Assembly (NCBI RefSeq): GCF_030553055.1
Contig: NZ_CP130713.1
Location: forward strand, 372,001 to 436,000
Length of the DNA stretch: 64,000 nt
DNA from: Streptomyces sp. XD-27
GTDB lineage: Bacteria; Actinomycetota; Actinomycetes; Streptomycetales; Streptomycetaceae
Reading direction: 5' to 3'
Within the stretch, counting starts at the first letter, position 1; every line of letters starts with the position of its first letter. The notes under the pieces were generated by a model that saw only the letters and a program-made list of their open reading frames with translations, did not search any database and was not told the DNA's origin. This document shows, one piece after another, positions 5,185 to 57,253 of this stretch. Made by a program: the position numbers and the translations under genes.

Positions 5185-5958
5185 TCACCTGGTGGACACG
5201 CCCAGGGTCCTTGCGTACGGCGGTGTGGGCGCGGCCGCCGCCATCAGGGACGTGGTGAACGGGTGCCGGGGCCGGGTCAGCACCTGGGCTGCGGTGCCCT
5301 GTTCGACGATCTCTCCCGCGTCGAGCACGGCGATCCGGTCCGCCAGCGCCGCCGCCGTGTCCAGGTCGTGGGTGATGAGCACCAGCGCCATGTCCCGGCG
5401 GTCCCGGAGCAGCGCGGCCAGGAGGTCGAGGACGCCGCGGCGGGTGACCATGTCGAGGCCGGAGGTGATCTCGTCGCAGACCAGCAGCCGGGGCCTGGCC
5501 GGCAGGGCGCGGGCGAGCGCGGCGCGCTGGAGTTCGCCGCCGGAGAGCTCGCCGGGCCGCCGCCGCACCAGGCCCGTGTCCAGCCCGGTCTCGGCCAGCG
5601 TCCGCAGGGCCTCGGCGGCCGCCTCGTCGGGCGCGGCGCCGCGGAGCCGTACGGCCGTGCGCGCGACCTGGTCCAGCACCGGGCGGTGCTCGTCGAACGC
5701 GGCCCGCGCGTCCTGGAAGATGTACTGCACGGCCGCCAGCTGATCCCGGCCGCGGGCGCGCAGGCTGGGCGGCAGCACGGCGCCGTCGAGCAGCACCTCG
5801 CCGTCGTAGGACCGGTGCAGCCCGGCGACGCAGCGGGCGAGCGTGGTCTTGCCGCTCCCGGAACGCCCGACGACGGCCAGGCACTCCCCCGCGGCGACCG
5901 TGAGCGCCGCGTCCCGCAGCACGGCGGTGGAGCCGTGCCGGGCCGTCAGCGCGCGCAC
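5185..5958 (-). CDS. ABC transporter ATP-binding protein, nickel/peptide family (second ATPase)
   Basis: A 257-aa ATPase and the last gene of the leftward operon. Walker A is GRSGSGKTTLA (about residues 31-41), the signature LSGGELQRAALARAL and Walker B RLLVCDEI, followed by ITHDL. Ending in a PHPFT-like segment (RPRHPFTTSL) is typical of DppF/OppF/NikE ATPases of peptide/nickel importers. The start is taken as GTG 5958, two bases after the upstream TGA, so translation is probably coupled; no better in-frame start exists upstream. It should pair with the ATPase encoded at 5961-6938 on the two permeases at 6935-8879. Confidence 0.86.
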   Translation of the reverse strand: MRALTARHGSTAVLRDAALTVAAGECLAVVGRSGSGKTTLARCVAGLHRSYDGEVLLDGAVLPPSLRARGRDQLAAVQYIFQDARAAFDEHRPVLDQVARTAVRLRGAAPDEAAAEALRTLAETGLDTGLVRRRPGELSGGELQRAALARALPARPRLLVCDEITSGLDMVTRRGVLDLLAALLRDRRDMALVLITHDLDTAAALADRIAVLDAGEIVEQGTAAQVLTRPRHPFTTSLMAAAAPTPPYARTLGVSTR

Positions 5959-5960
5959 CG

Positions 5961-6938
5961 TCAGCAGGGGGCGCGGGCCGGTGGCGGGCTCCTCGCGCGG
6001 CGGCTCCGGGCGGGCGATGCCCCGAGCTCCTCCGCGCGAGAGCAGGCGTCGGCGCCCAACTGGTGCGCGCGCGCTGGCAGCGGGGGCCGAGCGTCAGTGG
6101 CGAGCCCGGCAGGCGGCGGCTCCGGGCGGGCCTCAACTCCGAGCTCCTGCGCGTGCGGCTCCGGGCGGGCCTCGGCGCCGGGCTCGTCCGTGCGCGGCGT
6201 CGGCAAGGGTCGGGACTCGGTGGACAGGAGGCGGCGGGTCCACGCGTGCCGTGGGGCGTTCCAGATCCGGTCGGCGGGGCCCGATTCCACGACCCGGCCG
6301 TCCTTCATCACCACGACGTCGTCGGCGAGTTCCCGTACGACGGCCAGGTCGTGGCTGAGCAGGACGACCGCGATGCCCTGGGCGGCGACCGACGCCAGTT
6401 CGTCGACGATGCGCCGCTTGGTGAGCGCGTCCTGGCCGGTGGTCGGCTCGTCGGCGACGACGACCCGCGCGCCGAGCAGCAGCGCCTGGGCGATGACGAC
6501 GCGCTGCTGCTGGCCGCCGGAGAGCTGGTGCGGGTAGCGGCGCAGCAGTTCGGCGCCGTCCGGGAGCTGGGCCAGTTCGAGGGCGCGCAGCACCCGTTCG
6601 CGCGCGGCCGCCCGCCGCGGCCCGCGGGGCAGCGTCCGTACCTGGGTGCGGGCGATGTCGTGCAGGAGGGCGCCGACGCGGCGGACCGGGTTGAGGACGG
6701 CCGCCGGGTGCTGCGGCACGTAGCCGACCAGCCCGTCGACCACCTGGACCTCGCCGGTGACCCGGGCGCCGGCCGGGTACTCGCCGAGCAGCGCCAGGCC
6801 GGTCGTGGTCTTGCCGCTGCCGGACGGGCCGACCAGCGCGGTCACCGCGCCGGGCCGGGCCGCGAGGCTCACCCCGTCGACGATCGCGCTGCCGTCGACC
6901 TCGACCCGCAGGTCCGTGATCCGGGCCACCGCGCTCAC
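5961..6938 (-). CDS. ABC transporter ATP-binding protein, nickel/peptide family (first ATPase) with odd C-terminal tail
   Basis: A 325-aa ATPase. Walker A GPSGSGKTTTGLALL lies near residue 36, the signature is LSGGQQQRVVIAQALLL, Walker B VVVADEPT and the switch LLSHDLAVV; it matches DppD/OppD/NikD ATPases. The start GTG overlaps the permease stop (GTGA at 6935-6938) behind AAAGGAG. The recognisable domain ends near residue 245 (RHAWTRRLL). The last ~80 residues form a Pro/Ala/Glu/Arg-rich tail with near-repeats (AEARPEP, VEARPEP), unlike the usual OppD C-terminus, which in many members has a Cys-rich 4Fe-4S segment. The tail may be a slipped-repeat extension. Confidence 0.85.
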   Translation of the reverse strand: MSAVARITDLRVEVDGSAIVDGVSLAARPGAVTALVGPSGSGKTTTGLALLGEYPAGARVTGEVQVVDGLVGYVPQHPAAVLNPVRRVGALLHDIARTQVRTLPRGPRRAAARERVLRALELAQLPDGAELLRRYPHQLSGGQQQRVVIAQALLLGARVVVADEPTTGQDALTKRRIVDELASVAAQGIAVVLLSHDLAVVRELADDVVVMKDGRVVESGPADRIWNAPRHAWTRRLLSTESRPLPTPRTDEPGAEARPEPHAQELGVEARPEPPPAGLATDARPPLPARAHQLGADACSRAEELGASPARSRRARSPPPARAPC

Positions 6939-7930
6939 CGGTGTGTCTCCTTTCCCGTGCGCCGGCGCCGGCTTGGTCCGCGGTGCGCCAGGGCCGCGTC
7001 GAACAGCAGGTTGGTGCCCATCGACAGGGCGACGATCAGCAGGGCGGGCACCACGACAGCCCAGGGCTGGACGAACAGTCCGGTGCGGTTGCGGTCCACC
7101 ATCACCGCCCAGTCGGCGGCGTCGGGTGCCACGCCCACTCCGAGGAAGGCGGCGGTGGCCACCAGGTAGAGCACGCCGGTGAGCCGGACGCCCGCGTCCG
7201 CGGCGAGGGTGCGCAGCGTGGAGCGGCCGACGTAGCCGAGGGCGATCCGCGCCCAGCTCTCGCCCTGCATCCGCAGCGCCTCGACAGCCGGGCGGGCGGC
7301 CGCCTCCGCCGCCGTGGCGCGCGCGATGCGGGCCGCGTCGGGCACGTTGACCGCCGCGACCAGCAGCACCAGTCCGGCGGCGCCGGGTGCGTAGACGGAG
7401 GCGACGAGCAGCACCACCAGCAGGGAGGGCACGGCGAGCAGCACATCCAGCGGACGCATCAGCAGGTCCTCCAGCCACGGCCGGTGGGTGAGGGCGGCGC
7501 CCAGCCCGAGCGGCAGCGCGGCGGCGTAGGCGAGCGCGGTGGCCGCGAGCGCGACGAGCACGACCGACTGTCCGCCGAGCAGCACCTGGCGCCACACGTC
7601 GCGGCCGACGAAGTCGGTGCCGAGCCAGTGCCCGCCGCCGAGGGTGAAGGACGGCGCGCGCCTGCCGGGCTCGCCCGCGAACAGCGGGCCGATCAGGGCC
7701 AGCAGCAGGGGGACACCGGCGAGTACGGCGCCGAGCGCGTAGCGGCCGGGGCCGGGAGATGTGCGTGTCGCGGCGCCGCGCGCGTCGCGGCCCGCGCCGG
7801 GAGACGTACGCGTCGCGGCGCCGCGCGCGTCGCGGGCAGGGCCGGGGGACGACGTACGTGTCGCCGCGGCAGTGGTAGGCGTCCTCGCCCAGAATCCACG
7901 CGTCCTCGCGGAAGACATACGGCCGGTCAC
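6935..7930 (-). CDS. ABC transporter permease, DppC/NikC type, with repeat-bearing N-terminus
   Basis: A 331-aa membrane protein. The GTG at 7930 overlaps the frame-corrected stop of the upstream permease (GTGA, 7927-7930). The first ~55 residues are hydrophilic and contain two full copies and one partial copy of a 15-residue unit (TRTSPGAGRDARGAA). The core starts with a hydrophobic helix and then the periplasmic motif LGTDFVGRDVWRQ, diagnostic of the DppC/OppC/NikC subfamily. The BPD_transp_1 domain with an EALRMQGESWARI coupling segment (EAA-like loop) follows. It probably forms a heterodimer with the permease encoded at 7927-8879. Confidence 0.87.
   Translation of the reverse strand: MTGRMSSARTRGFWARTPTTAAATRTSSPGPARDARGAATRTSPGAGRDARGAATRTSPGPGRYALGAVLAGVPLLLALIGPLFAGEPGRRAPSFTLGGGHWLGTDFVGRDVWRQVLLGGQSVVLVALAATALAYAAALPLGLGAALTHRPWLEDLLMRPLDVLLAVPSLLVVLLVASVYAPGAAGLVLLVAAVNVPDAARIARATAAEAAARPAVEALRMQGESWARIALGYVGRSTLRTLAADAGVRLTGVLYLVATAAFLGVGVAPDAADWAVMVDRNRTGLFVQPWAVVVPALLIVALSMGTNLLFDAALAHRGPSRRRRTGKETHR
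7751..7864 (+). repeat. 45-bp tandem direct repeat inside permease gene
   Basis: Two 45-bp units (7751-7795 and 7796-7840) share most positions, and a third partial unit begins at 7841. The unit length is exactly 15 codons, so copy-number change keeps the reading frame. It encodes the hydrophilic N-terminal extension of the DppC-type permease. Confidence 0.85.
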
Positions 7931-8879
7931 GCCGCCACCCCCGACCTGGGGCGAGGCGGTGGGCGACCAGGTCGGCACCGAGGTTGAGGACGACGGCGAT
8001 CAGGCCGAAGACCACCGCGAGCCCCTGGACCACCGGCACGTCGCGGGCGGCGACCGCGTCCATCAGGACCGTGCCGAGGCCGGGGATGACGAACAGCGCC
8101 TCCACCACGATCACTCCGCACAGCAGCCAGTCGACGGTGCGGGCCAGTTGCTGGGCGGCGGGGACGACGGCGTTGGGCAGGGCGTGGGTGTAGCGCACGC
8201 GGACTCCGGAGACGCCGTAGCGGCGCGCTTGGGCGGCGTACGGCGAGGCCAGCGCGTCGATCATGCCGGCGCGGACGAGGCGGCTGATGGAGCACACGGG
8301 CCGGGACAGCAGCACCAGGACGGGCAGCACCAGGACGGCCGGGTGGCCCGCCAGGTCCGTGCCGTAGCCGACGGCGGTCGGCGGCAGCCAGTCCAGGCGC
8401 AGCGCGAAGACCGTGACCAGCAGCACGCCGAAGGCGAACTCCGGTACGGCGTAGATCCCCAGGGTCGCCGAGCTGACCAGTCGGTCGGCCCAGCCGCCCT
8501 CGCGGCGCGCGGCGAGCACGCCGAGGCCCACCGAGAGGGGCACCAGCAGCGCCAGGGTGAGCCCGGCGAGCAGCAGCGTGGGCCCGAATCCGCCGGACAG
8601 GTAGGTGGTGACGGGCCGACCGGAGGCCAGCGAGGTGCCGAAGTCGCCGTGCAGCATTCCGGCGGCCCAGTCGGCCAGCCGCTCCAGGGCGGGCCGGTCC
8701 AGCTCCATGGCCTCGCGGATGGCGGCGATCCGTGCGGGGTCGGGCTGGTCGCCGGCCAGCGAGGTGGCGGCGTCGCCCGGCAGCGCCTCGGTGAGCGCGA
8801 AGACCAGGGCCACGACGGCCACGATCTGCAGGCACCCGAGGATCAGCCGCCGGACGAGCCAGGAACGCAGGTTCCTCAC
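7927..8879 (-). CDS. ABC transporter permease, DppB/NikB type (one-base frameshift near 3' end)
   Basis: It starts at GTG 8879, overlapping the binding-protein stop (GTGA). The sequence is a typical DppB/NikB permease: an N-terminal helix, EALPGDAA near residue 30, an extracytoplasmic loop, then the BPD_transp_1 domain with a YAAQARRYGVSGVRVRYTHA-like coupling loop and a C-terminal VLNLGADLVAHRL. As given, the frame has no stop before the downstream ATPase and would read through to 5961. Adding one base to the GGGG run at 7948-7951 gives ...HRLAPRSGVAA and a TGA at 7927-7929 that overlaps the next start exactly as at the other junctions. Corrected length is 317 aa, normal for the family. Confidence 0.85.
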
Positions 8880-10485
8880 GCGAGCCACACCTTGTCGAAG
8901 CGCGCCCAGTCCAGGGTGTTGGCCGGGGCCTTGCGCGCCACGCCCTTGACGTTGCGCGCGGTGCCGACGATCCAGTCGGCGAAGCCCCAGATCAGGAAGC
9001 CGCCTTCGGTGTGCAGGCGGCGCTGCATGCGCTCGTACACCGCGGCGCGTGCCTTGGGGTCCTTGGTGGACTGCGCCTGCTGGTACAGGGCGTCGAAGTC
9101 CTTGTGCTTCCAGTGGGTGGCGTTGGTGGTGGAGCCGGTGAGCAGCCGCTGGGAGATGTGCGACTCGATGGGCATGGCGCCGGAGCGGTAGCAGCACAGG
9201 GTGCCGGAGTCGAGGATGTCGGCCCAGTAGCTGTCCTTGGCTCCCGTCCTGACCTCGATCTTCACGCCCGCCTTGGCGGCCTGGTCCCGGAAGACGGCCG
9301 CGGCCTCGGTGAACCCGGCGGCGACCTCGGAGGTGTCGAGGGTGACCCGCAGGTCCTCGGCTCCGGCCTGCTTGAGCAGGTGCCGGGCGCGGTCCAGGTC
9401 CTGTTCGCGCTGCGGCAGCCCGTCGGCGTAGTACTGGTACCCCTTGCCGAACAGGTCGTTGCCGATCTCGCCGGCGCCGGACAGGGCGCCGTCGACCAGC
9501 TCCTGGCGGTCGGCGATGAGGAAGAACGCCTGGCGGACGCGCTTGTCGTCGAAGGGCGCGCGGTCGGTCTTCATGGCGAAGCCCTGCATGGCGCTGTTGC
9601 GCAGGCGCACGATCTCGACCTGGCCGTTGCCCTCGTGGGCGCGGGCGGTGGCAGGGTTGAGCTCGTGGGCGTACTCGATCTGGCCGCCGAGCAACGCGTT
9701 GATCCGGGCGGACTCCTCGTTGGCGACGACGAACTCCAGCTCGTCGAGGTGGGGCGCGCCCTCCCAGTAGTCGCCGTACGCCTTGAGGACGGTGGACCGG
9801 CCCGGCGCGAAGGAGACGAAGCGGAAGGGCCCGGACCCGATGGGGTGCTTGTCGAACTCCTCGGCGCCCTTGGGCACGATGTACGCGCCGAACGCGGCGA
9901 GCACGTTGGGGAATTCGGCGGTGGGCCGCTTGAGCCGGAACTCGATCACGCGCTTGCCCTTGGCGCGGCTGGCGGCGAGGTCGATGGGTTCCAGGGACGC
10001 CTTGGCGCGGAAGGCCCGCTTCGGGTCGGCGATGCGTCGGTAGCTGGAGAGGACGTCGTCGGCGGTGACCGGCTTGCCGTCGTGGAACGTCGCCTCGCGC
10101 AGGGTGACCGTCCAGCGGTCCAGGGTGGCGTTCGGCTCCCACGTGGCGGCGAGCCGGGGGACGGCGGCCATGTCGGAGCCGTAGTCGGCGAGCTTGTCGA
10201 ACAGGGCCTTGGCGCGGGCGGCGTCGGCGAACAGGTTGGTCATGTGCGGGTCGAGGGTCTCGCCGGCTCCTCCCCCGCGAAGGCGGCCCGCAGTCGGCCC
10301 CCTGGCTTGGGCTTGCCGTCCGCCGCGCCGGATTCCGACGGCTTGGACGAGCCGCACCCGGTGAGCGCGAGGCCGCCGAGCCCGGCGGCACCGACGGCGC
10401 CCGTGGCGGCGAGGAAGCCGCGGCGGCGCAGACCGGGGTACCGCGTGGTGTGGTCGAGGGCGGTGTGGTCGGGGGTGGTGTTCAT
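8876..10485 (-). CDS. Nickel/peptide-family ABC substrate-binding lipoprotein (one-base frameshift)
   Basis: The first gene of the importer section, 536 aa after correction. The N-terminus (ATG 10485, behind GAGGAG) has a Tat-type lipoprotein signal: RRRGFLAATG, a hydrophobic stretch, then the lipobox LTGC. The mature part is an SBP_bac_5 protein with TLDPHMTNLFADA, the domain-II motif VTADDVLSSYRRI and a C-terminal GGFLIWGFADWIVG. These proteins capture peptides, or metal-chelate complexes in the NikA/CntA branch, outside the membrane. The signal and the mature domain are in different frames; one extra base in the CCCCC run at 10272-10276 joins them (AFAGGGAGETLDPH). Confidence 0.87.
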
Positions 10486-10497
10486 GCGGGGTTCTCC

Positions 10498-11418
10498 TCA
10501 GAGGGGGTTGGGTCCGTCCGGCGCCAGCCGGGCGATCACATGCAGCCGGTCTCCGTCGGCCGTGGACGACGTCGATGGGTCCCCCGGCCGCCAGGGCGGT
10601 TCCGTGCGCGGGCCGGGGCCGTCGTACAGCGCCAGCACGGTGAAGCCGTGCGCGGCCAGCACGTACCGCAGTTCCTGGGGGAAGAGCAGCCGCCACGCGG
10701 AGTGCTGTTCGACCGGCGGCGTGCCGTCGTCGGCGGTCCACACGCGCCGGCGCCTGAGCAGTTGCGCGGCGCGGTCGACCCGCAGCGTGGTGACGGACCG
10801 GTAGCCGGTGCCCTGCCAGGTGAAGCGGCTGACGGCGGGTGCGTCGAGGAGTTCGGTGCTGCCGAGGAAGAACGCCCCGTTGCGCATTTCGGCCACCAGC
10901 AGCCCGCCGGGGGCCAGCGCGGCGCGGCAGCTGCGCAGCATGCCGTCGAGCTGGTCGTTGGTGTGGCAGTACAGGAAGGCGCTGTCCAGGCAGACGACGG
11001 CGTCGAAGGGGCGCCCGCCCAGTTCGGACAGGTCGAAGTCGCGCAGGTCGGCGTGGCGGTAGTCGGGCCCGGGGTGGTGGGCGCGGGCGTGGTCGAGCAT
11101 GGCGTCGGAGACGTCGGCGGCGACGACGCGCCGTCCGGCCGCGTGCAGATGGGCGGCGTCCCGGCCGGTGCCGCAGCCCAGGTCCAGGACGCGGGGCCCG
11201 GCGCCGTACCGCCGCAGCCGGTCCTCGGCCCAGCGGGCGGCGAGCCGGTCGGGGTCGGGGAAGCGCGCCTCGTACAGGGCGGGGTGGTCGGTGAGCAGGT
11301 TTCCGCTCGTGTTGTCCGTGGCGGTCAGGCGGGATCCGCTCGTGCCGTTCCGGGGGGTCACAGGAGATCCGTTCGGCGCGGTCACGGGAGATCCGTTCGT
11401 GCGGTGCGTGGCGGTCAT
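10498..11418 (-). CDS. Class I SAM-dependent methyltransferase
   Basis: A 306-aa protein; the start ATG 11418 follows GAGAGGAACCCC. The SAM-binding motif I is VLDLGCGTGRDAAHL (about residues 76-90), followed by VVAADVSDAML and an ADLRDFDL motif, all typical of Methyltransf_25/11 folds. The first ~40 residues are low-complexity Thr/Asn/Gly/Ser with near-repeats (NGSPVTAPNGSPVTPRNG). It sits between the exporter gene and the importer genes, so it may methylate the operon's product (inference). The acceptor is not predictable from sequence. Confidence 0.85.
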   Translation of the reverse strand: MTATHRTNGSPVTAPNGSPVTPRNGTSGSRLTATDNTSGNLLTDHPALYEARFPDPDRLAARWAEDRLRRYGAGPRVLDLGCGTGRDAAHLHAAGRRVVAADVSDAMLDHARAHHPGPDYRHADLRDFDLSELGGRPFDAVVCLDSAFLYCHTNDQLDGMLRSCRAALAPGGLLVAEMRNGAFFLGSTELLDAPAVSRFTWQGTGYRSVTTLRVDRAAQLLRRRRVWTADDGTPPVEQHSAWRLLFPQELRYVLAAHGFTVLALYDGPGPRTEPPWRPGDPSTSSTADGDRLHVIARLAPDGPNPL

Positions 11419-11428
11419 GGGGTTCCTC

Positions 11429-12694
11429 TCACGCCGTCGCCGGTACGGGGACCGGGGCCGGCGGCGCCGGGAGGGCGCGCAGCCGGTGCAGCCAGGCGAC
11501 CCCGGCGGCGGAGGCGAGCCCGAAGCCCGCGCAGCACAGCCAGGGCAGCCAGGCCGCGCCGCCGTGGTCGCCCGCGTCCATGGCCCAGCCGACGGCGGTG
11601 TTGCCGAGGGCCGCGGCGACGCCCGAGACGACGTAGAAGATCCCGAAGTACGTGCCGGTGAGTTCGGCGCGCCCGAAGGCGGGGATGAGCTCCATCACGA
11701 ACGGCTGGGCGATCATGGCGCCGAGGTAGAGCAGCAGGGCTCCGCCGAGGACGGGCAGCAGGGCGAGGGCGGCGGCGGTGGTGCCGTCCGGTGCGCCGCT
11801 CCCGGCGGCGGTCAGCAGCGGCGGGAGGAACGCCAGCCCCATCAGGGCGAGTCCGCCGCCGATCCACCGGGCGCGGCTGCCCCGCTCCTTCAGCGCCCGC
11901 GTGATGCGCAGTTGGAGGGCGAGGTTGGCGGCGGTGCCGACGAGGAACACCAGCCCGGCCGCGCCGTCCCAGCCGGTGGCGCGGCGGGCTCCGTCGGGCA
12001 GCAGCAGGTACAGCTGGTTCTCCATGGTGAACATGCCGACCATGGCGAGGGAGAAGGCGAGGAACGTCCGGTTGCCGAGGACTTCGCGCCAGTCGCCGAG
12101 GACGCTGCCGCCGGCCGGGGGCACCTCGCGGGCGGGCAGGACGAGCGCCTGGGCGACGGTGAGCACGGCGAAGATGGCGGCGGCGGTGAGCGCGGAGAGC
12201 CGGAAGTCCACCAGGAGCAGCGCGCTGCCGAGCAGCGGGCCGATGAGCGCGCCGGTGGTGGCGAAGACGTTGAACAGGGCGAACGCCTCGGCCTTGCGGT
12301 CTCCGGCCTCCTGGGCGAGGTAGGCACGGACGGCCGGGTTGAACAGGGCTCCGGCCAGTCCGCTGAGCACGGAGGCGGCGAGCAGCACCGGCAGCCCGTC
12401 GCCGAGGGCGAACAGCGCGAAGCCGGCGGTGCGCAGCGCGCAGCCGGCGATGATGACGCCGCGTGCGCCGAGCCGGTCGGCGGCCGAGCCCCCGACGATG
12501 AACAGGCCCTGCTGGCTGAGGTTGCGGACGCCGAGCACGATCCCGACGACCGCCGCGGACATCCCCAGGTCCTCGCCGAGGTGGGTGGCGAGATAGGGGA
12601 TGAGCAGGTAGAAGCCGGTGTTGACGCCGAGCTGGTTGATCAGGAGGAGGCGGATGGCGAGCGGGAAGCCGCGCATCTCACGCCAGGTCTTCAC
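11429..12694 (-). CDS. MFS transporter, probable exporter of the operon product
   Basis: A 421-aa protein with about 12 membrane helices. The GTG at 12694 overlaps the epimerase stop (GTGA). The motif LGVRNLSQQGLFIVGGSAADRLGAR between helices 2 and 3 is a drug-exporter-like MFS motif A region, and a central charged loop separates the two six-helix halves. The domain resembles MdtH-type exporters. In metallophore systems such as staphylopine (CntE), an MFS exporter is encoded with biosynthetic genes and a peptide/nickel importer. Position and family suggest the same role here (inference). Confidence 0.83.
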   Translation of the reverse strand: MKTWREMRGFPLAIRLLLINQLGVNTGFYLLIPYLATHLGEDLGMSAAVVGIVLGVRNLSQQGLFIVGGSAADRLGARGVIIAGCALRTAGFALFALGDGLPVLLAASVLSGLAGALFNPAVRAYLAQEAGDRKAEAFALFNVFATTGALIGPLLGSALLLVDFRLSALTAAAIFAVLTVAQALVLPAREVPPAGGSVLGDWREVLGNRTFLAFSLAMVGMFTMENQLYLLLPDGARRATGWDGAAGLVFLVGTAANLALQLRITRALKERGSRARWIGGGLALMGLAFLPPLLTAAGSGAPDGTTAAALALLPVLGGALLLYLGAMIAQPFVMELIPAFGRAELTGTYFGIFYVVSGVAAALGNTAVGWAMDAGDHGGAAWLPWLCCAGFGLASAAGVAWLHRLRALPAPPAPVPVPATA

Positions 12695-13779
12695 GGGTTG
12701 GGTGCCTTTCCGAGGGCTGTGGGCTGGTGCTGGTGGCCGGTGCCGCTGGGCCGTACGCCGAGTCCGGCGCGGCCGTTCGCCCGTACGGTGCCGTCGGTGC
12801 CGCCGATGCCGGTCCACGGGTCGTGGGCGAGCAGCAGGTGCCCGTCGAGGTCGGTCCAGCGGGCGCGGTCGGCGAGGTGGACGGCGGGGGCGATGCCCAG
12901 CGAGCTGGCGGTGAGGCAGCCGAGCATCAGGTCGGTGCCGCTGCCCGCGAGGAGTTCGGCGATCCGCAGGGCGGCGTGGACGCCGCCGCACTTGGCGAGC
13001 TTGACGTTGACGCCGTGGACGCGCCCGGCGAGGCGGCGGGCGTCCTCGTAACCCACCGCGTCCTCGTCGGCGATGACGGGCAGCGGGGAGCGCTCGGCGA
13101 GTTTCGCGAGGGCTTCGGGGTCGCCGGGGGCGGTGGGCTGCTCGACGGCCTCGACTCCGAGGTCGGCGAAGCGCGGGATCAGGGTCTCGGCGTCGGCGGG
13201 GCTCCAGGCGCCGTTGGGGTCCAGCAGGAGCCTCACGTGCGGGGCGGCGTCGCGGATGGCCGCCACGCGGGCGAGGTCGTCGTCCGGGTCGGGGGTGCCC
13301 GCCTTGACCTTGAGCAGGGTGAAGCCGCTGTCGGCCAGGCAGCGGGCCTGGACGGCGGCGCGCGCCCGCTCGGTGATGCCGATGGTGCGGGCGGTCGCGG
13401 CGGCGGGGGCGGTGAAGCCGCCGAGCAGTTGGTGGACGGCGCATCCGGCGCGCTTGCCGACGAGGTCGAGCAGCGCCGACTCCACGGCGGCGACGGCCGC
13501 GGGCGGGGTGCCGTCCGCGATCAGGTCGCCGTCGCGGAAGGCGGCCAGCGCCGTCTCCGGGTCGGGGAAGCGGCCGAGCTCGACGGCGGCGTCGCTCATC
13601 AACCGGGTCAGGGTCGCGGCGTCGAGGCCGAAGTACGCGCTGGCGACGGCCTCGCCGCAGCCGCGCAGGCCGCCGTGTTCGACGCTGATCCAGACGGCGT
13701 CGCGGGCGGCCATGGTGGAGCGGGATATCCGCAGCGGCTCGGTCAGCTCCAGCCGTACGGTGCGCAGGGTGGTCTTCAT
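12691..13779 (-). CDS. Enolase-superfamily enzyme, dipeptide epimerase-like
   Basis: A 362-aa protein of the muconate lactonizing/mandelate racemase group. It shows the catalytic KVKAG (first acid/base Lys), metal ligands in LLDPNGAW, EQPT and IADED, and the second Lys in NVKLAKCGG. This KxK...D...E...D...K arrangement is that of L-Ala-D/L-Glu and related dipeptide epimerases. It would invert the alpha-carbon of an amino-acid or dipeptide unit. It starts at ATG 13779, sharing one base with the stop of the PLP gene. The product of the neighbouring ligase is a plausible substrate (inference). Confidence 0.86.
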   Translation of the reverse strand: MKTTLRTVRLELTEPLRISRSTMAARDAVWISVEHGGLRGCGEAVASAYFGLDAATLTRLMSDAAVELGRFPDPETALAAFRDGDLIADGTPPAAVAAVESALLDLVGKRAGCAVHQLLGGFTAPAAATARTIGITERARAAVQARCLADSGFTLLKVKAGTPDPDDDLARVAAIRDAAPHVRLLLDPNGAWSPADAETLIPRFADLGVEAVEQPTAPGDPEALAKLAERSPLPVIADEDAVGYEDARRLAGRVHGVNVKLAKCGGVHAALRIAELLAGSGTDLMLGCLTASSLGIAPAVHLADRARWTDLDGHLLLAHDPWTGIGGTDGTVRANGRAGLGVRPSGTGHQHQPTALGKAPNP

Positions 13780-14896
13780 CAGGTGGACTCCGGTGCGGTG
13801 TGGGGGTACGGCACCTCGCCGCCGCTCAGCGGGTCGACGACGGTGGCGCAGCGGGCCCAGCCGGCGGCCTCGGCGGCGTGCGGGTGCCGGAGCTCCACCG
13901 GCCGGGTGGCGGCGCTGCCCGGGCCGATGCCGTGGGCGGCGGTGAAGTCGTCGTCGTAGACGGTGCCGAGATACCGCTGGGGGCCGTCGGGGAAGACGGT
14001 GGCGACGACGGCGCCGGGGTGCACGCGGGCGGCCCAGGCCGAGACGAGCGCGACGGCGCCGGTGCTCCAGCCGCCGCTGACGAAGTTGTCGCGGGCCAGT
14101 CGGCGGCAGCAGTCGGCGGATTCGGCGGGCCCGACCCAGTGCACCTCGTCGAAGGCGTCGTAGGCGACGTTGCGCGGGTGGATGCTGCTGCCCAGGCCGC
14201 GCATCAGGCGGGGCGGGCGGGCTGGCCGAAGATGGTCGAGCCGGTGGCGTCCACGCCGATGAGCCGCAGCGCGGGCCAGCGGCGGCGCAGCGGGGCGGCG
14301 ACGCCCGCGCTGTGGCCCCCGGTGCCGACGCTGCACACGAGGATGTCCATGTGGTCGAGCTGGTGGGTGAGTTCGGTGGCGAGTGAGGCGTATCCGGCGA
14401 CGTTGTCGGGGTTGTTGTACTGGTCGGGCCAGTAGGCGCCGGGGAGTTCGGCGAGCAGGGCGCGCAGCCGCGCCAGGCGTGCGGCCTGCCAGCCGCCGGC
14501 GGCGGCCGGGCGGTCGACGAGTTCGAGGCGGACGCCGTGGGCGCGCAGCAACCGCCGCATCGAGGGTTCGAGTTCGGCGTCGCCGACGAGGACGACGGGG
14601 TGGCCCAGGGCCTGTCCGGCGAAGGCGAGCCCGATGCCGAGGGTGCCGGAGGTGGATTCCACCACGGGCGCGCCGGGGCGCAATTCGCCGCGCCGCCGGG
14701 CGCCGAGCAGCATGGAGACGGCGGCGCGCGCCTTCATGCCGCCGGCGCCGAGCCCTTCGAGCTTGGCCCAGAAGCCGGGCTGGGGGCAGGGCAGGTCGCA
14801 GCTGATCCGGGCGAGCGGGGTGCGGCCGAGGAGGGCGAGCAGGTCGGGGTTGGCGGTGGTACACGGTGCGATGGCGGTCGGCGCGGCGGCGGTCAC
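13779..14896 (-). CDS. PLP-dependent cysteine synthase/SbnA-like enzyme (one-base frameshift)
   Basis: A fold-type II PLP enzyme, 372 aa after correction. The GTG start at 14896 lies behind GGAGGT and overlaps the upstream stop (GTGA). GGMKARAA carries the Schiff-base Lys (residue 55); the phosphate/substrate loop is STSGTLG (about 81-87), and a Gly-rich VGTGGHSAG follows. Compared with O-acetylserine sulfhydrylases, the PSGSIKDR context is altered, as in SbnA-type 2,3-diaminopropionate pathway enzymes that join amino groups to activated serine. As given, the frame ends at 14204, but the conserved C-terminal part ([11 protein letters not shown] onward) continues in another frame; one base added in GGGG 14210-14213 restores it. 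Confidence 0.84.
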
Positions 14897-15699
14897 GGGG
14901 CACCTCCGTAGCGGTAGACGAAGCCGGGGCCGCCGTCGAGCCAGAAGAACGGGTAGGGCTCGGCGCAGACGGCGGTGACCCCGTCCCCGAGGAAGTGCGG
15001 CAGGACGGCGCTGCCGGTCTGGGCGAACATCACCAGCGGTGTGCCGTGCCGGGCGGCGTGCGCGCGCAGGGTCTCGAACGTGCCGTTGCCCAGGGTCATC
15101 CCGGAGGCGAGGACCCCGTCGCAGCGGGCGAGTTCGGCGGCGGCGTCGGTGCGGACCGGCTCGCCCCATTCGGTGGTTCCGCCCTTGAGGTCGCAGGGCA
15201 CGTAAGCCAGCCCGCGGGAGCGCAGCGCCTCGAGGAGGGAGTTGACGACGCCGACGACGAGGACGGTGCTGCCGGGCGGCAGGTCGAGCAGGCCGACGAC
15301 GGCGTGGGCGCGGGCGCGGGACTTCTCCAGCGAGCTGCCGGCGGGCAGCGGCCAGGGGCGGGCGCCGCTGCCGGGTCGGGTGTGCGGGGCGGCGTGCATC
15401 AGGTACGCGTCGAGGGCGGCGGTCCTGACCGGCGGCAGCGGATGGTCGAGCAGGGTGGCGATGTCGGTGCCGACGCAGTCGTCGAGGGTGGTGGCGGGCA
15501 GTTCGCCGGGTTCGACGGCGCAGGAGCCGACGGCCTCGGCGAGCCGCAGGCTCAGCACCTCGTTGCGGTAGCCGCCGTCTCGGCCTTCGTGGCGTACGGC
15601 CTGGCTGGTGGTGAAGGCGACGGAGACGTACGTCCCGGCCGGGTCGGGGCCGAGCGCCCCGGCCCGCACCCGGCGTATGAGGTCCTCGTAGGCACTCAT
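14893..15699 (-). CDS. DUF4213/DUF364 Rossmann protein ('putative heavy-metal chelation' family)
   Basis: A 268-aa soluble protein. Its N-terminal half (to about 125) fits the enolase-N-like DUF4213 domain; the C-terminal half has a Rossmann-like core ([10 protein letters not shown] at 144-153, then [16 protein letters not shown] near 194-209, and [16 protein letters not shown]) matching DUF364. Pfam describes this pair as putative heavy-metal chelation; its catalytic role in biosynthesis is not established. Start ATG 15699 overlaps the ATP-grasp stop (ATGA) and the 3' end overlaps the PLP gene (GTGA), so it is firmly inside the operon. The Zur-type box upstream agrees with a metal-related role. 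Confidence 0.8.
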
Positions 15700-16955
15700 C
15701 GACTCACCACACAGGGCCGCAGACCGGCTATGAGGGACTCGACGTGGGCGCGGGCCCGGCCGCCGCCGGCGGGGTCGGTGGCCATGACGTGGCCCAGGTA
15801 CTCGTTGTTGCTGCCCGCGGCCCTCACATCCGTGCCGGGCTCTGCGAGTTGGACCTCCAGCACGCCGGGGGCGCCGTCGAGGGCGCCGGTGCCGTCGATG
15901 CGCTCCAGCACGCCTGCGGTGGCGGGCACCAGGAAGCCGATGGCGGCGCTGCGCGCGCCGGTCTCCTGTACCGCCAGGTCGGGCTCGCGGCCCAGGGCCA
16001 CGTCCACGAAGGCGGCGGCAAGGTCGATGCCGGTGACGTGCCGGACGAGTTCGGTGATGCGGTTGCCGGCGGGCCGTGGGTTGACCTCGACCACGCGCGG
16101 GCCGCGGGTGGTGAGCTTGATCTCGGTGTGGGCGACGACGTCGTCCAGGCCGAGGGCGGCCAGGGCGGCCAGCGCGGTGTCGGCGGCCGCGGCCGCGTCG
16201 GCCCCGGCGAGCGGGGCGGGGAACATGTGGCCGGTCTCGATGAACGCCGGGGCGCCGCCGACGCTCTTGTCGGTCACGCCGACGACGTGCGCGGCGCCGC
16301 GGAACGAGACGGTCTCGACGCTTACTTCGGGTCCGTCGAGGAGTTCTTCGAGGAGCACCTGGGGGGCGCGCCGCTGGCCGCGCGCGTTGACGGGGAAGTC
16401 GGCGAGCGCCCGGTAGGCGGCGGACAGCGCGGCTTCGTCGTCGACGCGGCGTACGTACATCCCGGCGCACAGGTCGACCGGCTTGAGGACGAGAGGGTAG
16501 CCGATCTCGCGGGCGGACCGGACAGTGGCCGCCCAGTCGTCGCAGACCGCGAAGCGCGGGCCGGGCACGCCCGCGGCGGCCAGGGCCCGGCGGGTGGCGT
16601 CCTTGCGGCAGGCGTCGGCGACGGCGTCGGGAGCGGGTCCGGGGAGGCCGAGGTACGCGGCGATGCGGGCGACGGTCGGCAGGTAGTAGTCGCAGGAGGT
16701 CAGCACGCCGTCGAAGCGCAGCACCTTGTGCAGCTCGCCGATGCGGGGCAGCAGCGTGTCGAGGTCGTTGGTGTCGGCGGTGAGGACGTTGCGCGCCGAG
16801 AGCAGCGGGTGGGCCGTTCCTTCGGGGGCCGAGCGCAGGTAGTGGTGCAGGTCGCGAGTGAGGAAGGTGAACTCGTGGCCGCTCTCGCGCAGCGCCCGCG
16901 GGAGCAGCCTGCTCATCGACCCGACCCAGCTTTCGACCATCAGCAGATGACCCAC
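15696..16955 (-). CDS. ATP-grasp ligase, first gene of Zur-boxed operon
   Basis: A 419-aa ATP-grasp enzyme. The start is GTG 16955 behind AAGGAG with 6-base spacing (a longer frame upstream would cross the operator). A pre-ATP-grasp domain is followed by the nucleotide-binding [11 protein letters not shown] (about 155-165), HTEIK (about 278) and the metal-binding EVNPRPAGN (about 290-298). The family includes L-amino-acid and dipeptide ligases that join carboxylates to amines through an acyl-phosphate. With the PLP enzyme and epimerase behind it, it probably assembles a small pseudopeptide (inference). The untranslated leader is about 70 bases, starting at the Zur-type box. Confidence 0.85.
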
Positions 16956-17024
16956 GACTCTCCTTCGTCTCGAGGATTGGTCCCGGAGCTTCGTTTCGAA
17001 GCTTTGACCGAGCCCCCACATTAA

Positions 17025-17039
17025 CGATAATCATTTTCA
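17025..17039 (-). promoter_or_regulatory. Zur-type operator upstream of the putative metallophore operon
   Basis: On the minus strand this reads TGAAAATGATTATCG, 13 of 15 matches to the Streptomyces Zur consensus as I recall it (TGAAAATGATTTTCA). It is embedded in a 19-base Fur-family dyad, GATAATCATTTTCATTGTC on the plus strand. It is a striking AT-rich island in very GC-rich DNA. It lies 70 bases before the ATP-grasp GTG and 18 bases before the divergent S33 peptidase ATG, so it could control both. A generic Fur-family site (iron or nickel) is the alternative. Confidence 0.75.
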
Positions 17040-17057
17040 TTGTCATCTGACTGGACC

Positions 17058-55969: not shown

Positions 55970-55984
55970 TGAAAATGATTTCCA
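55970..55984 (+). promoter_or_regulatory. Zur box upstream of COG0523 gene
   Basis: TGAAAATGATTTCCA differs at a single position (13) from the Streptomyces Zur consensus TGAAAATGATTTTCA as I recall it. It ends 18 bases before the GTG at 56003, so a bound repressor would block initiation. It is an AT-rich island in GC-rich DNA and resembles the box at 17025-17039. Confidence 0.87.
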
Positions 55985-56002
55985 ATTGCATAGCATCCGG
56001 GT

Positions 56003-57253
56003 GTGGCCGACGAGAGCGGCCGTACCCGGGGCCTGCTGAGCGTCGTGTACGGCAACACCCCCGAGATGCGTGGTCGCGCGCTGGAACTCCTGCTGCGCGC
56101 CGCGCCGCGGGCGATCGTGCTCTCCGTCTCGCTGCCCGCCGACGGCGGCGACGGGCACGGCGGGAGCGGTGGGGATGGCGGGCGCCGCGCGCGTGGCGGA
56201 GGCGGCGGGCGTCCCGCCGTGCAGCGCTTCACCTCGGGCGGCGACACGCATGAACCGTGGGCGCGCGGCGCCACCGGCATCCCTTCCGTGATCCTCCGTC
56301 AGGACCTGCTGGAGCTCTCCCGTACGGCGCGCGCCCCGCACGTCATCCTGTCGCTTCCGGAGCACATCGACGTCACGCCCTTTCTGGCGGACGTGTGGCG
56401 GCCGCCGCTGGGCTCCACCCCGCTGGCCTCCCGCTACGAGCTCGCCCCGGTCGTCGCGGCGCTCGATCCCGACCGGTTCCTCGCCGACCTGCGGTGCGTG
56501 CACCAGGCCGTACGGGTATGGGGCGACGCGGAGCGCCCCGCGCCCTTGACCCTGGCCGAGGCCGCCGCCCGGCAGGCGGAGGGCGCCGGGGTGCTGATCA
56601 TCGGGAGCGGCCCGCCGGAGACGGCGGGACGGCACGCGGGCGTCCGGGCGCTGCTCGGCCATATGAACCCCTCCGCCGCGGTGCTCGCCGACGGCGTGGA
56701 CGCCGCCGAGCTGGCGGCGGCGGTGGTGCCCGGCGGCCGGGGCCCGGCGGCCGATCCGGCCGACCGGCTGGACCCGCTGTCCGGGTCGGGTGTGTGCCGC
56801 CGCGGGGTGCACCACGGGGTGTCCTCGGTGCTGTGGCGGGCCCGGCGCCCGATGCATCCCCAGCGGCTGGCGGAGGCGCTGCACCGGGTGCTGCCCGGCG
56901 TGGTGCGCGGCCGCGGGCACCTGTGGCTCGCCGGCCGCCCGGACACGATCGTCTCCTGGCGGTCGGCCGGCGGCCATGTGGAGCTGGCGGAGGCAGGGCG
57001 CTGGCTGGCGCGCGACGACGCCGAGGCGTGGCGGCGCGCGTCGCCGGAACGCCGCACGCTGGCCGCCTGGTTCTGGGACGACTACTACGAGGAGCGGCGC
57101 AACGAGATCGTGTTCACCGGCGGCGGCCTGGACCCGGACCGCGTGCGCGCCGAGCTGGACGCCGCGCTGCTGGACGACGGTGAACTCGCCCTGGGGGCCG
57201 CGGAGTGGGCCCGGTTCCCCGACCCGCTGTTCGGTACGCGGCCCGGGGCCTGA
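56003..57253 (+). CDS. Degenerate COG0523 (CobW-family) protein under Zur control
   Basis: A 416-aa protein. The C-terminal half is a clear CobW_C domain (SSVLWRARRPMHPQRLAEAL, GRGHLWLAGRPDTIVSWRSA, ERRNEIVFTGGGLDPDRV). The N-terminal half keeps the GTPase layout, but the P-loop position reads LLSVVYGNTPEMRGRALELL, with no GxxGxGKT. The usual CxCC metal site before 'LREDLL' reads GIPSVILRQDLL, with no Cys. A Gly-rich insert (about residues 48-70) follows strand 2. COG0523 GTPases deliver Zn to client proteins under zinc limitation. This one probably does not hydrolyse GTP and may act as a Zn-responsive scaffold (inference). Confidence 0.85.
   Translation: MADESGRTRGLLSVVYGNTPEMRGRALELLLRAAPRAIVLSVSLPADGGDGHGGSGGDGGRRARGGGGGRPAVQRFTSGGDTHEPWARGATGIPSVILRQDLLELSRTARAPHVILSLPEHIDVTPFLADVWRPPLGSTPLASRYELAPVVAALDPDRFLADLRCVHQAVRVWGDAERPAPLTLAEAAARQAEGAGVLIIGSGPPETAGRHAGVRALLGHMNPSAAVLADGVDAAELAAAVVPGGRGPAADPADRLDPLSGSGVCRRGVHHGVSSVLWRARRPMHPQRLAEALHRVLPGVVRGRGHLWLAGRPDTIVSWRSAGGHVELAEAGRWLARDDAEAWRRASPERRTLAAWFWDDYYEERRNEIVFTGGGLDPDRVRAELDAALLDDGELALGAAEWARFPDPLFGTRPGA

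Follow-up and report, generated by a model that had tools for sequence, protein, structure and literature searches.

We analyzed a window of 64,000 nucleotides from the 7.55-Mb genome of Streptomyces sp. XD-27 (contig NZ_CP130713.1, positions 372,001 to 436,000), which contains a putative metallophore operon of eleven genes, g1 to g11. The operon is on the minus strand and runs from 16955 down to 5185 of the window. Its first gene, g1 (15696..16955, GTG start at 16955), encodes an ATP-grasp ligase of the L-amino acid ligase type with ATP-grasp_4 and LAL_C2 domains. It is followed by g2 (14893..15699) for a DUF364 protein, g3 (13779..14896) for an SbnA/CysK-type pyridoxal phosphate (PLP) enzyme, and g4 (12691..13779) for an enolase-superfamily epimerase of the dipeptide-epimerase type, recognized by both domain and family matches. 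The next two genes are g5 (11429..12694), a transporter of the major facilitator superfamily (MFS; PF07690) predicted to be an exporter, and g6 (10498..11418), an S-adenosylmethionine-dependent methyltransferase. The distal part encodes an ATP-binding cassette (ABC) importer, consisting of the solute-binding lipoprotein g7 (8876..10485; SBP_bac_5, PF00496, NikA/OppA type), the permeases g8 (7927..8888; PF00528, 85.4 bits) and g9 (6935..7930; PF00528), and the ATPases g10 (5961..6938) and g11 (5185..5958). Neighboring genes either overlap or have spacers of about a dozen bases.

The original prediction, made from the sequence alone, had named this gene order and these families. Domain and family matches confirmed both, apart from DUF4213: g2 was described as a DUF4213/DUF364 protein, and Pfam matched DUF364 (PF04016, 28.4 bits against a cut-off of 23) and not DUF4213. 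The prediction also held that the operon lacks nonribosomal peptide synthetase (NRPS), NRPS-independent siderophore (NIS) synthetase and opine enzymes. This was borne out, as domain and family profiles matched no adenylation or condensation domain, no IucA/IucC-type synthetase, and no opine dehydrogenase or nicotianamine-synthase-like enzyme among the g1–g11 proteins.

The genes had been described as an unbroken run, which was not upheld. The reading frame changes inside g3 (pieces at about 14204-14896 and 13779-14228) and inside g7, near its N-terminal part. The frame of g8 continues beyond the stop position of its relative in L061, a related locus that served as the reference for comparisons of g1 to g11. 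Homology to L061 starts at about 11307 for g6, whose start is uncertain, and at about 7714 for g9. Two ATPase genes had been claimed; both open reading frames (ORFs) are present, and they correspond to the N-terminal (g10) and C-terminal (g11) halves of a protein that is fused in most relatives. Of the 101 relative loci holding the gene, 61 have it as a single ORF, some of the others being cut by the end of the stretch, and it is one fused gene in the annotated records of S. angustmyceticus and Rhodococcus.

With g3 and g7 interrupted, g8 without its expected end and g10/g11 split, the operon might be decaying and non-functional in this particular strain. We consider this unlikely, though not far-fetched. 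The Zur box described below is intact, and identity to L061 is 65-90% across the gene pieces, the exception being the short N-terminal part of g7 (51%). Moreover, interruption is also seen elsewhere in this genome, in a binding-protein gene next to a different Zur site (locus L085), while rpoB is an intact ORF, so assembly indel errors are a likelier cause of the frame breaks than decay.

The predicted Zur box and a putative zinc regulon

A Fur/Zur-type dyad was predicted 70 nucleotides ahead of the first start codon, and we found it at 17025-17039, upstream of the g1 GTG at 16955. The Zur motif of S. coelicolor is tGaNNatSatNNtCa, and a 21-bp motif, taaTGaNAANNNTTNtCANta, was derived from actinobacterial znuA genes (PMC5472717). 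The predicted box (17022..17042, minus strand), which includes the 15-bp core, has two mismatches to the 21-bp motif. Scanning the window with the pattern at up to two mismatches gave six matches at four distinct sites, where shuffled sequence gave 0.16 on average, and the only match with zero mismatches was that at 17025.

In a genome-wide scan, TGAAAAYSRTTDTCR at up to one mismatch occurred at six distinct sites in the strain's own genome, and the reversed control gave none. One of the sites is the operon promoter. The others are ahead of an operon for ZnuA, an ABC ATPase, an ABC-3 permease and a Fur-family protein; between a second ZnuA/ABC-3 operon and an Opp-type importer; ahead of a 2473-aa NRPS; ahead of a CobW-domain gene (window 55970); and between chitinase-like and PhoD-like genes, which were named by eye. 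The sixth is probably a chance match.

The box also recurred at related operons. Across the upstream regions of the window and 38 relatives (the type-A loci of the next section), the best 15-mer had at most five mismatches to the consensus as typed in 39/39 regions and at most four in 38/39. Among mononucleotide shuffles, 9/300 reached five mismatches and 0/300 reached four. In the 39 upstream sequences, a 27-nt box carried 1.46 bits per column, compared with 0.27 in its flanks. On sequence grounds, the case for predicted Zur control of the operon is strong.

As an alternative, we considered a metallophore with nickel, cobalt or more than one metal as its physiological target, or one under another Fur-family regulator. 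The best NCBIfam model for g7 is of the NikA type, and the top models for g7 and the ATPases are nickel and staphylopine (Cnt) importers, all below cut-off; staphylopine itself carries several metals (PMC9598555), and the genome encodes four Fur-family proteins. The motif, however, is the published Zur motif, and the other strong sites of the genome sit at zinc genes, which makes this alternative improbable.

Three of the Zur-type sites adjoin genes of further note. The CobW-domain gene (55970-57253, COG0523 type) has its site, with one mismatch, 30 bases upstream. At 712000-742000 of the genome (L085 and L086), two sites accompany the second ZnuA/ABC-3 operon, the Opp-type importer and the 2473-aa NRPS. 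The importer, which faces the Zur site near the NRPS gene, is of the same kind as that of the operon, with 45-48% identity to g8–g11 of L061, and its binding-protein gene is the frame-interrupted one mentioned above. The region is probably a coelibactin-like zincophore locus, the coelibactin-likeness of the NRPS being a guess.

Conservation of the operon and a second cluster type

DUF364 relatives were found in 67/150 genomes of the same genus. We called relatives with at least 70% identity type A and full-length relatives with 41-46% identity type B; there were 40 type A (the window included), 27 type B and three weak places, and one genome carried both types. Among the matches listed, the closest DUF364 relatives of the window were from Streptomyces. 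A scan with one genome per species gave 289 DUF364-relative loci, of which the best 80 were inspected.

Of the 39 type-A places besides the window, 38 were obtained with wide flanks. The order g1–g4 was kept in 38/38, and later genes run off the stretch in some. These 38 loci from whole genomes and 80 from the contig search gave 118 relative loci; the two sets share genomes and are not independent. The numbers of loci holding each gene, with those having it as a single ORF covering 85% or more of the reference length in brackets, were 118 (113) for g1, 117 (111) for g2, 117 (87) for g3, 114 (109) for g4, 112 (111) for g5, 108 (103) for g6, 106 (100) for g7, 105 (103) for g8, 103 (96) for g9 and, as above, 101 (61) for the fused ATPase; some losses are stretch ends, and the simple gene caller trims starts. 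The set was colinear in about 100 Streptomyces loci, and the importer was within the operon in the loci of sufficient length. In a phylum-wide sample, 8/396 genomes matched. The Rhodococcus sp. ZPP plasmid pRZP2 has the complete set, importer included, in the same order at about 51-62% identity. The original prediction had named a lack of co-occurrence in other genomes beforehand as refuting; the genes proved colinear in many Streptomyces and in another bacterial order.

The 21-bp motif at up to three mismatches preceded g1 in 35/38 type-A loci. These loci had 37 motif sites in 695,009 bases, and only two were elsewhere than before g1. On pRZP2 the motif has one mismatch and is some 40-60 nt before g1; the Embleya locus has it at two mismatches, and S. 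angustmyceticus only at three to four. No site with up to three mismatches was found in 136,930 bases of background. In a larger background of 163,205 bases there were none at three, two at four and 14 at five mismatches. The non-Streptomyces type-A locus L230 has only a version with four to five mismatches before g1, which can also be obtained from background.

Several candidates were rejected. A divergent alpha/beta hydrolase gene was not taken as part of the operon, being present in only 56 of 113 loci with a called upstream neighbor. Three Streptomyces loci with weak DUF364-like matches (L038-L040) and two of the 17 non-Streptomyces DUF364 loci (L232 and L233) had no operon-protein match and no Zur motif and were not counted as members.

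Type B was examined in 17 of the 27 Streptomyces places and in two plasmid loci, 19 in total. Its core is an SbnA-family PLP enzyme (31-35% identity to the type-A enzyme) plus a DUF364 protein, and the loci inspected closely also have an MFS transporter. Several contain a GHMP kinase, a small methyltransferase and a FecB/FecCD importer. Locus L022 has a different importer instead, with a binding protein 49% identical to g7 of L061. A search of the 17 Streptomyces type-B loci yielded no ATP-grasp relative.

The 21-bp Zur motif at up to three mismatches was present in 16/19 type-B loci, and its 20 sites were all intergenic by the gene calls used. Class-wide, PF04016 was matched in 32/394 genomes. 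All 17 PF04016 loci outside the genus of the window were classified: 13 were type B, two were type A and two were neither, and the motif was present in 12/13, 1/2 and 0/2 of them, respectively. A GHMP kinase was matched in 11 of the 13 type-B loci.

Type-B clusters with Zur motifs are new here and go beyond what the original prediction had found. They form the strongest argument that the product of the PLP enzyme and DUF364 would be wanted under zinc starvation. Because these clusters also carry Zur motifs, we think that, on balance, the two proteins form the common core of an undescribed class of Zur-controlled metallophore clusters in Actinomycetes, with DUF364 as a chelator-forming enzyme. 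The class appears to come in at least two forms. In type A the core is joined by an ATP-grasp ligase, a dipeptide epimerase and an Opp/Nik-type importer; in type B it is often accompanied by a GHMP kinase and an importer of the FecBCD type.

Iron control of the operon was rejected, since a DmdR-type iron box was absent from the window and nearly all loci. At up to four mismatches, the box pattern had no match in the window, 0/19 in type-B loci, 1/38 in type-A loci (L066) and 1/17 in further loci (L221, off the cluster). The pattern works, because it gave 10 distinct sites at up to three mismatches in the strain's own genome and none in the reversed control.

One type-B locus, L027, has its own Fur-family regulator (PF01475); the features noted there, at 10623-11036 and 7521-8300, include a 2-oxoglutarate-oxygenase-like protein recognized by eye.

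Proposed chemistry and transport

Both pieces of g3 best matched the SbnA family TIGR03945 (NCBIfam), below the equivalog cut-off. The best PDB match of its L061 orthologue was SbnA (5d87/5d84), and in the alignment with SbnA the lysine motif was conserved, as was the QY-motif tyrosine. SbnA couples O-phosphoserine with glutamate, and diaminopropionate is subsequently set free by SbnB; AMA synthase, the enzyme of the fungal chelator aspergillomarasmine A (AMA), couples O-phosphoserine with aspartate and no free diaminopropionate is formed (PMC12751119). Domain and family matches of the operon's proteins revealed no gene for splitting such a conjugate, whether of the SbnB or the argininosuccinate-lyase type. 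We propose that g3 couples the amino group of an acidic amino acid with a serine donor, either O-phosphoserine or O-acetylserine, and so forms an amino-polycarboxylate conjugate. The conjugate would probably be retained as the chelating backbone, because the operon has no releasing enzyme.

The L061 orthologue of g1 is nearest to L-amino acid ligases and is related to BacD, with 3vot as its closest solved relative. The best solved matches of g4 were dipeptide epimerases and relatives (3iji and 3jva, through the L061 orthologue), and NCBI annotates its orthologues as dipeptide epimerase. The lysines and the DxD motif that are catalytic in the enolase superfamily aligned with those of 3iji, while NCBIfam equivalog scores stayed below cut-off. 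The likeness of g1 to L-amino acid ligases and of g4 to dipeptide epimerases fits the making, and then the inverting, of an amide-linked dipeptide.

A sequence search with g2 against PDB chains gave no match, so its structure was modeled using AlphaFold2 (35 sequences; mean predicted local distance difference test score 89.8). In Foldseek, the best PDB matches of the model were the solved DUF364 proteins 3l5o (template modeling scores 0.57/0.62) and 3npg, with a two-domain fold. In 2010, structure and context led to the proposal that DUF364 acts in metal-chelator synthesis (PMC2954201), and the predicted link to Zur would sharpen that proposal.

In the proposed pathway, g1 would attach an amino acid to the conjugate through an amide bond, g4 would invert one center, and the methyltransferase g6 and DUF364 protein g2 would complete the chelator. 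The MFS protein g5 would export it. The lipoprotein g7, whose twin-arginine and lipobox features were read by eye, would capture the chelator in complex with its metal, to be returned to the cell by the Opp/Nik-type ABC transporter. The case for making, export and re-import appears good, and the exact chemistry is a proposal.

The same proteins might instead take up and remodel a foreign chelator or peptide (xenometallophore or peptide scavenging), with the ligase, epimerase and PLP enzyme recycling it. Opp/Nik-type importers carry peptides too, dipeptide epimerases and related enzymes work in peptide utilization, and g4 also matched a model for N-acetyl-D-Glu racemase, below cut-off. However, synthesis and export are suggested by finding a ligase that spends ATP, an SbnA-type enzyme and an MFS protein together in one colinear operon, and domain matches of the operon proteins showed no peptidase or other breakdown enzyme. 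We therefore regard scavenging as quite improbable. A dipeptide antibiotic or signal, timed by Zur and accompanied by an importer of other purpose, is very improbable: relatives of g1 such as L-amino acid ligases and BacD do make dipeptides and the antibiotic bacilysin, and ATP-grasp and MFS genes are common in clusters of the dipeptide-antibiotic type, but the importer belongs to the operon in sufficiently long loci and in Rhodococcus, and Zur motifs recur at type-B clusters, where no ATP-grasp relative was found.

Interpretation and related systems

Taken together, it is quite probable that g1–g11 form a metallophore operon that is repressed by Zn-Zur and induced by zinc starvation, with zinc as the likeliest metal of its product. 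The parts of this interpretation that can be checked computationally came out in its favor, which supports the prediction and is not proof of a metallophore.

Several points weigh against it. Genes are interrupted in the copy analyzed here. Any of the four Fur-family proteins could in principle recognize such a box. The one encoded beside znuACB scores higher with Fur than with Zur NCBIfam models, all below cut-off, so that its naming as Zur rests on its location. The motif at up to three mismatches is absent in 3/38 type-A loci and one of the two non-Streptomyces type-A loci, as well as in 3/19 type-B loci (L021, L023 and L032) and 1/13 non-Streptomyces type-B loci. Finally, the genome has a strong SbnB-family gene elsewhere (1364561-1365532; 415.6 bits, cut-off 326.9), which may provide a source of free diaminopropionate.

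The operon resembles three known systems, and it lacks the enzymes that define the opine, NIS and NRPS routes. With the zincophore [S,S]-ethylenediamine-disuccinate (EDDS) of Amycolatopsis japonicum, it would share regulation by Zur and independence of both NRPS and NIS assembly (PMC4993170, PMC9252823); antiSMASH has a rule for aminopolycarboxylic acids (PMC10320115). With AMA (toxin A), it would share an SbnA/cysteine-synthase-type PLP enzyme and a retained serine–amino acid conjugate, which in AMA is a zinc-binding amino-polycarboxylate (PMC12751119, PMC8319579); AMA differs in being fungal, and no ligase, epimerase, DUF364 or Zur is in evidence in the excerpts of these papers. The staphylopine system (cntKLMABCDFE) likewise combines synthesis, MFS-type export and NikA/Opp-type re-import in a single operon under Fur/Zur (PMC9598555), and g7 and the ATPases weakly matched Cnt models, but the present operon has no domain of the opine dehydrogenase or nicotianamine synthase type. 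Coelibactin-type clusters, to which the Zur-boxed NRPS near the Opp-type importer of the same genome may be compared, share the Zur control and differ in NRPS assembly. Staphyloferrin B (sbn) shares the SbnA-family enzyme, whereas the present operon has neither SbnB nor a NIS synthetase.

If the interpretation holds, a large share of Streptomyces (40/150 sampled genomes have a close DUF364 relative) would carry a zinc-scavenging pathway without an NRPS, NIS or opine enzyme. DUF364 would gain a testable function, where the 2010 structure paper only suggested a role in chelator synthesis. The operon would also point to new amino-polycarboxylate chelators, a group in which AMA strips zinc from metallo-beta-lactamases (PMC8319579) and EDDS is a biodegradable ligand (PMC9252823). 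No report of this operon was found among the titles and abstracts listed for CC-licensed PubMed Central papers, which does not imply its absence from print.

Related enzymes were also seen in other settings. A plasmid of Streptomyces sp. ITFR-16 (L187, 6037-12190) carries genes for a kinase, a PLP enzyme, an ATP-grasp protein (37% identity to g1), an argininosuccinate lyase and an MFS transporter next to an NRPS, which looks like another route to diaminopropionate or amine release. Three actinobacterial plasmid loci (L184, 6923-9297; L185, 6926-9327; L186, 5926-8324) have a two-gene unit of a PLP enzyme (57-58% identity to g3 of L061) and an MFS transporter (43-47% to g5). In R. opacus B4, the pair adjoins copper-resistance genes. 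Such pairs may serve in the synthesis and export of a metal ligand.

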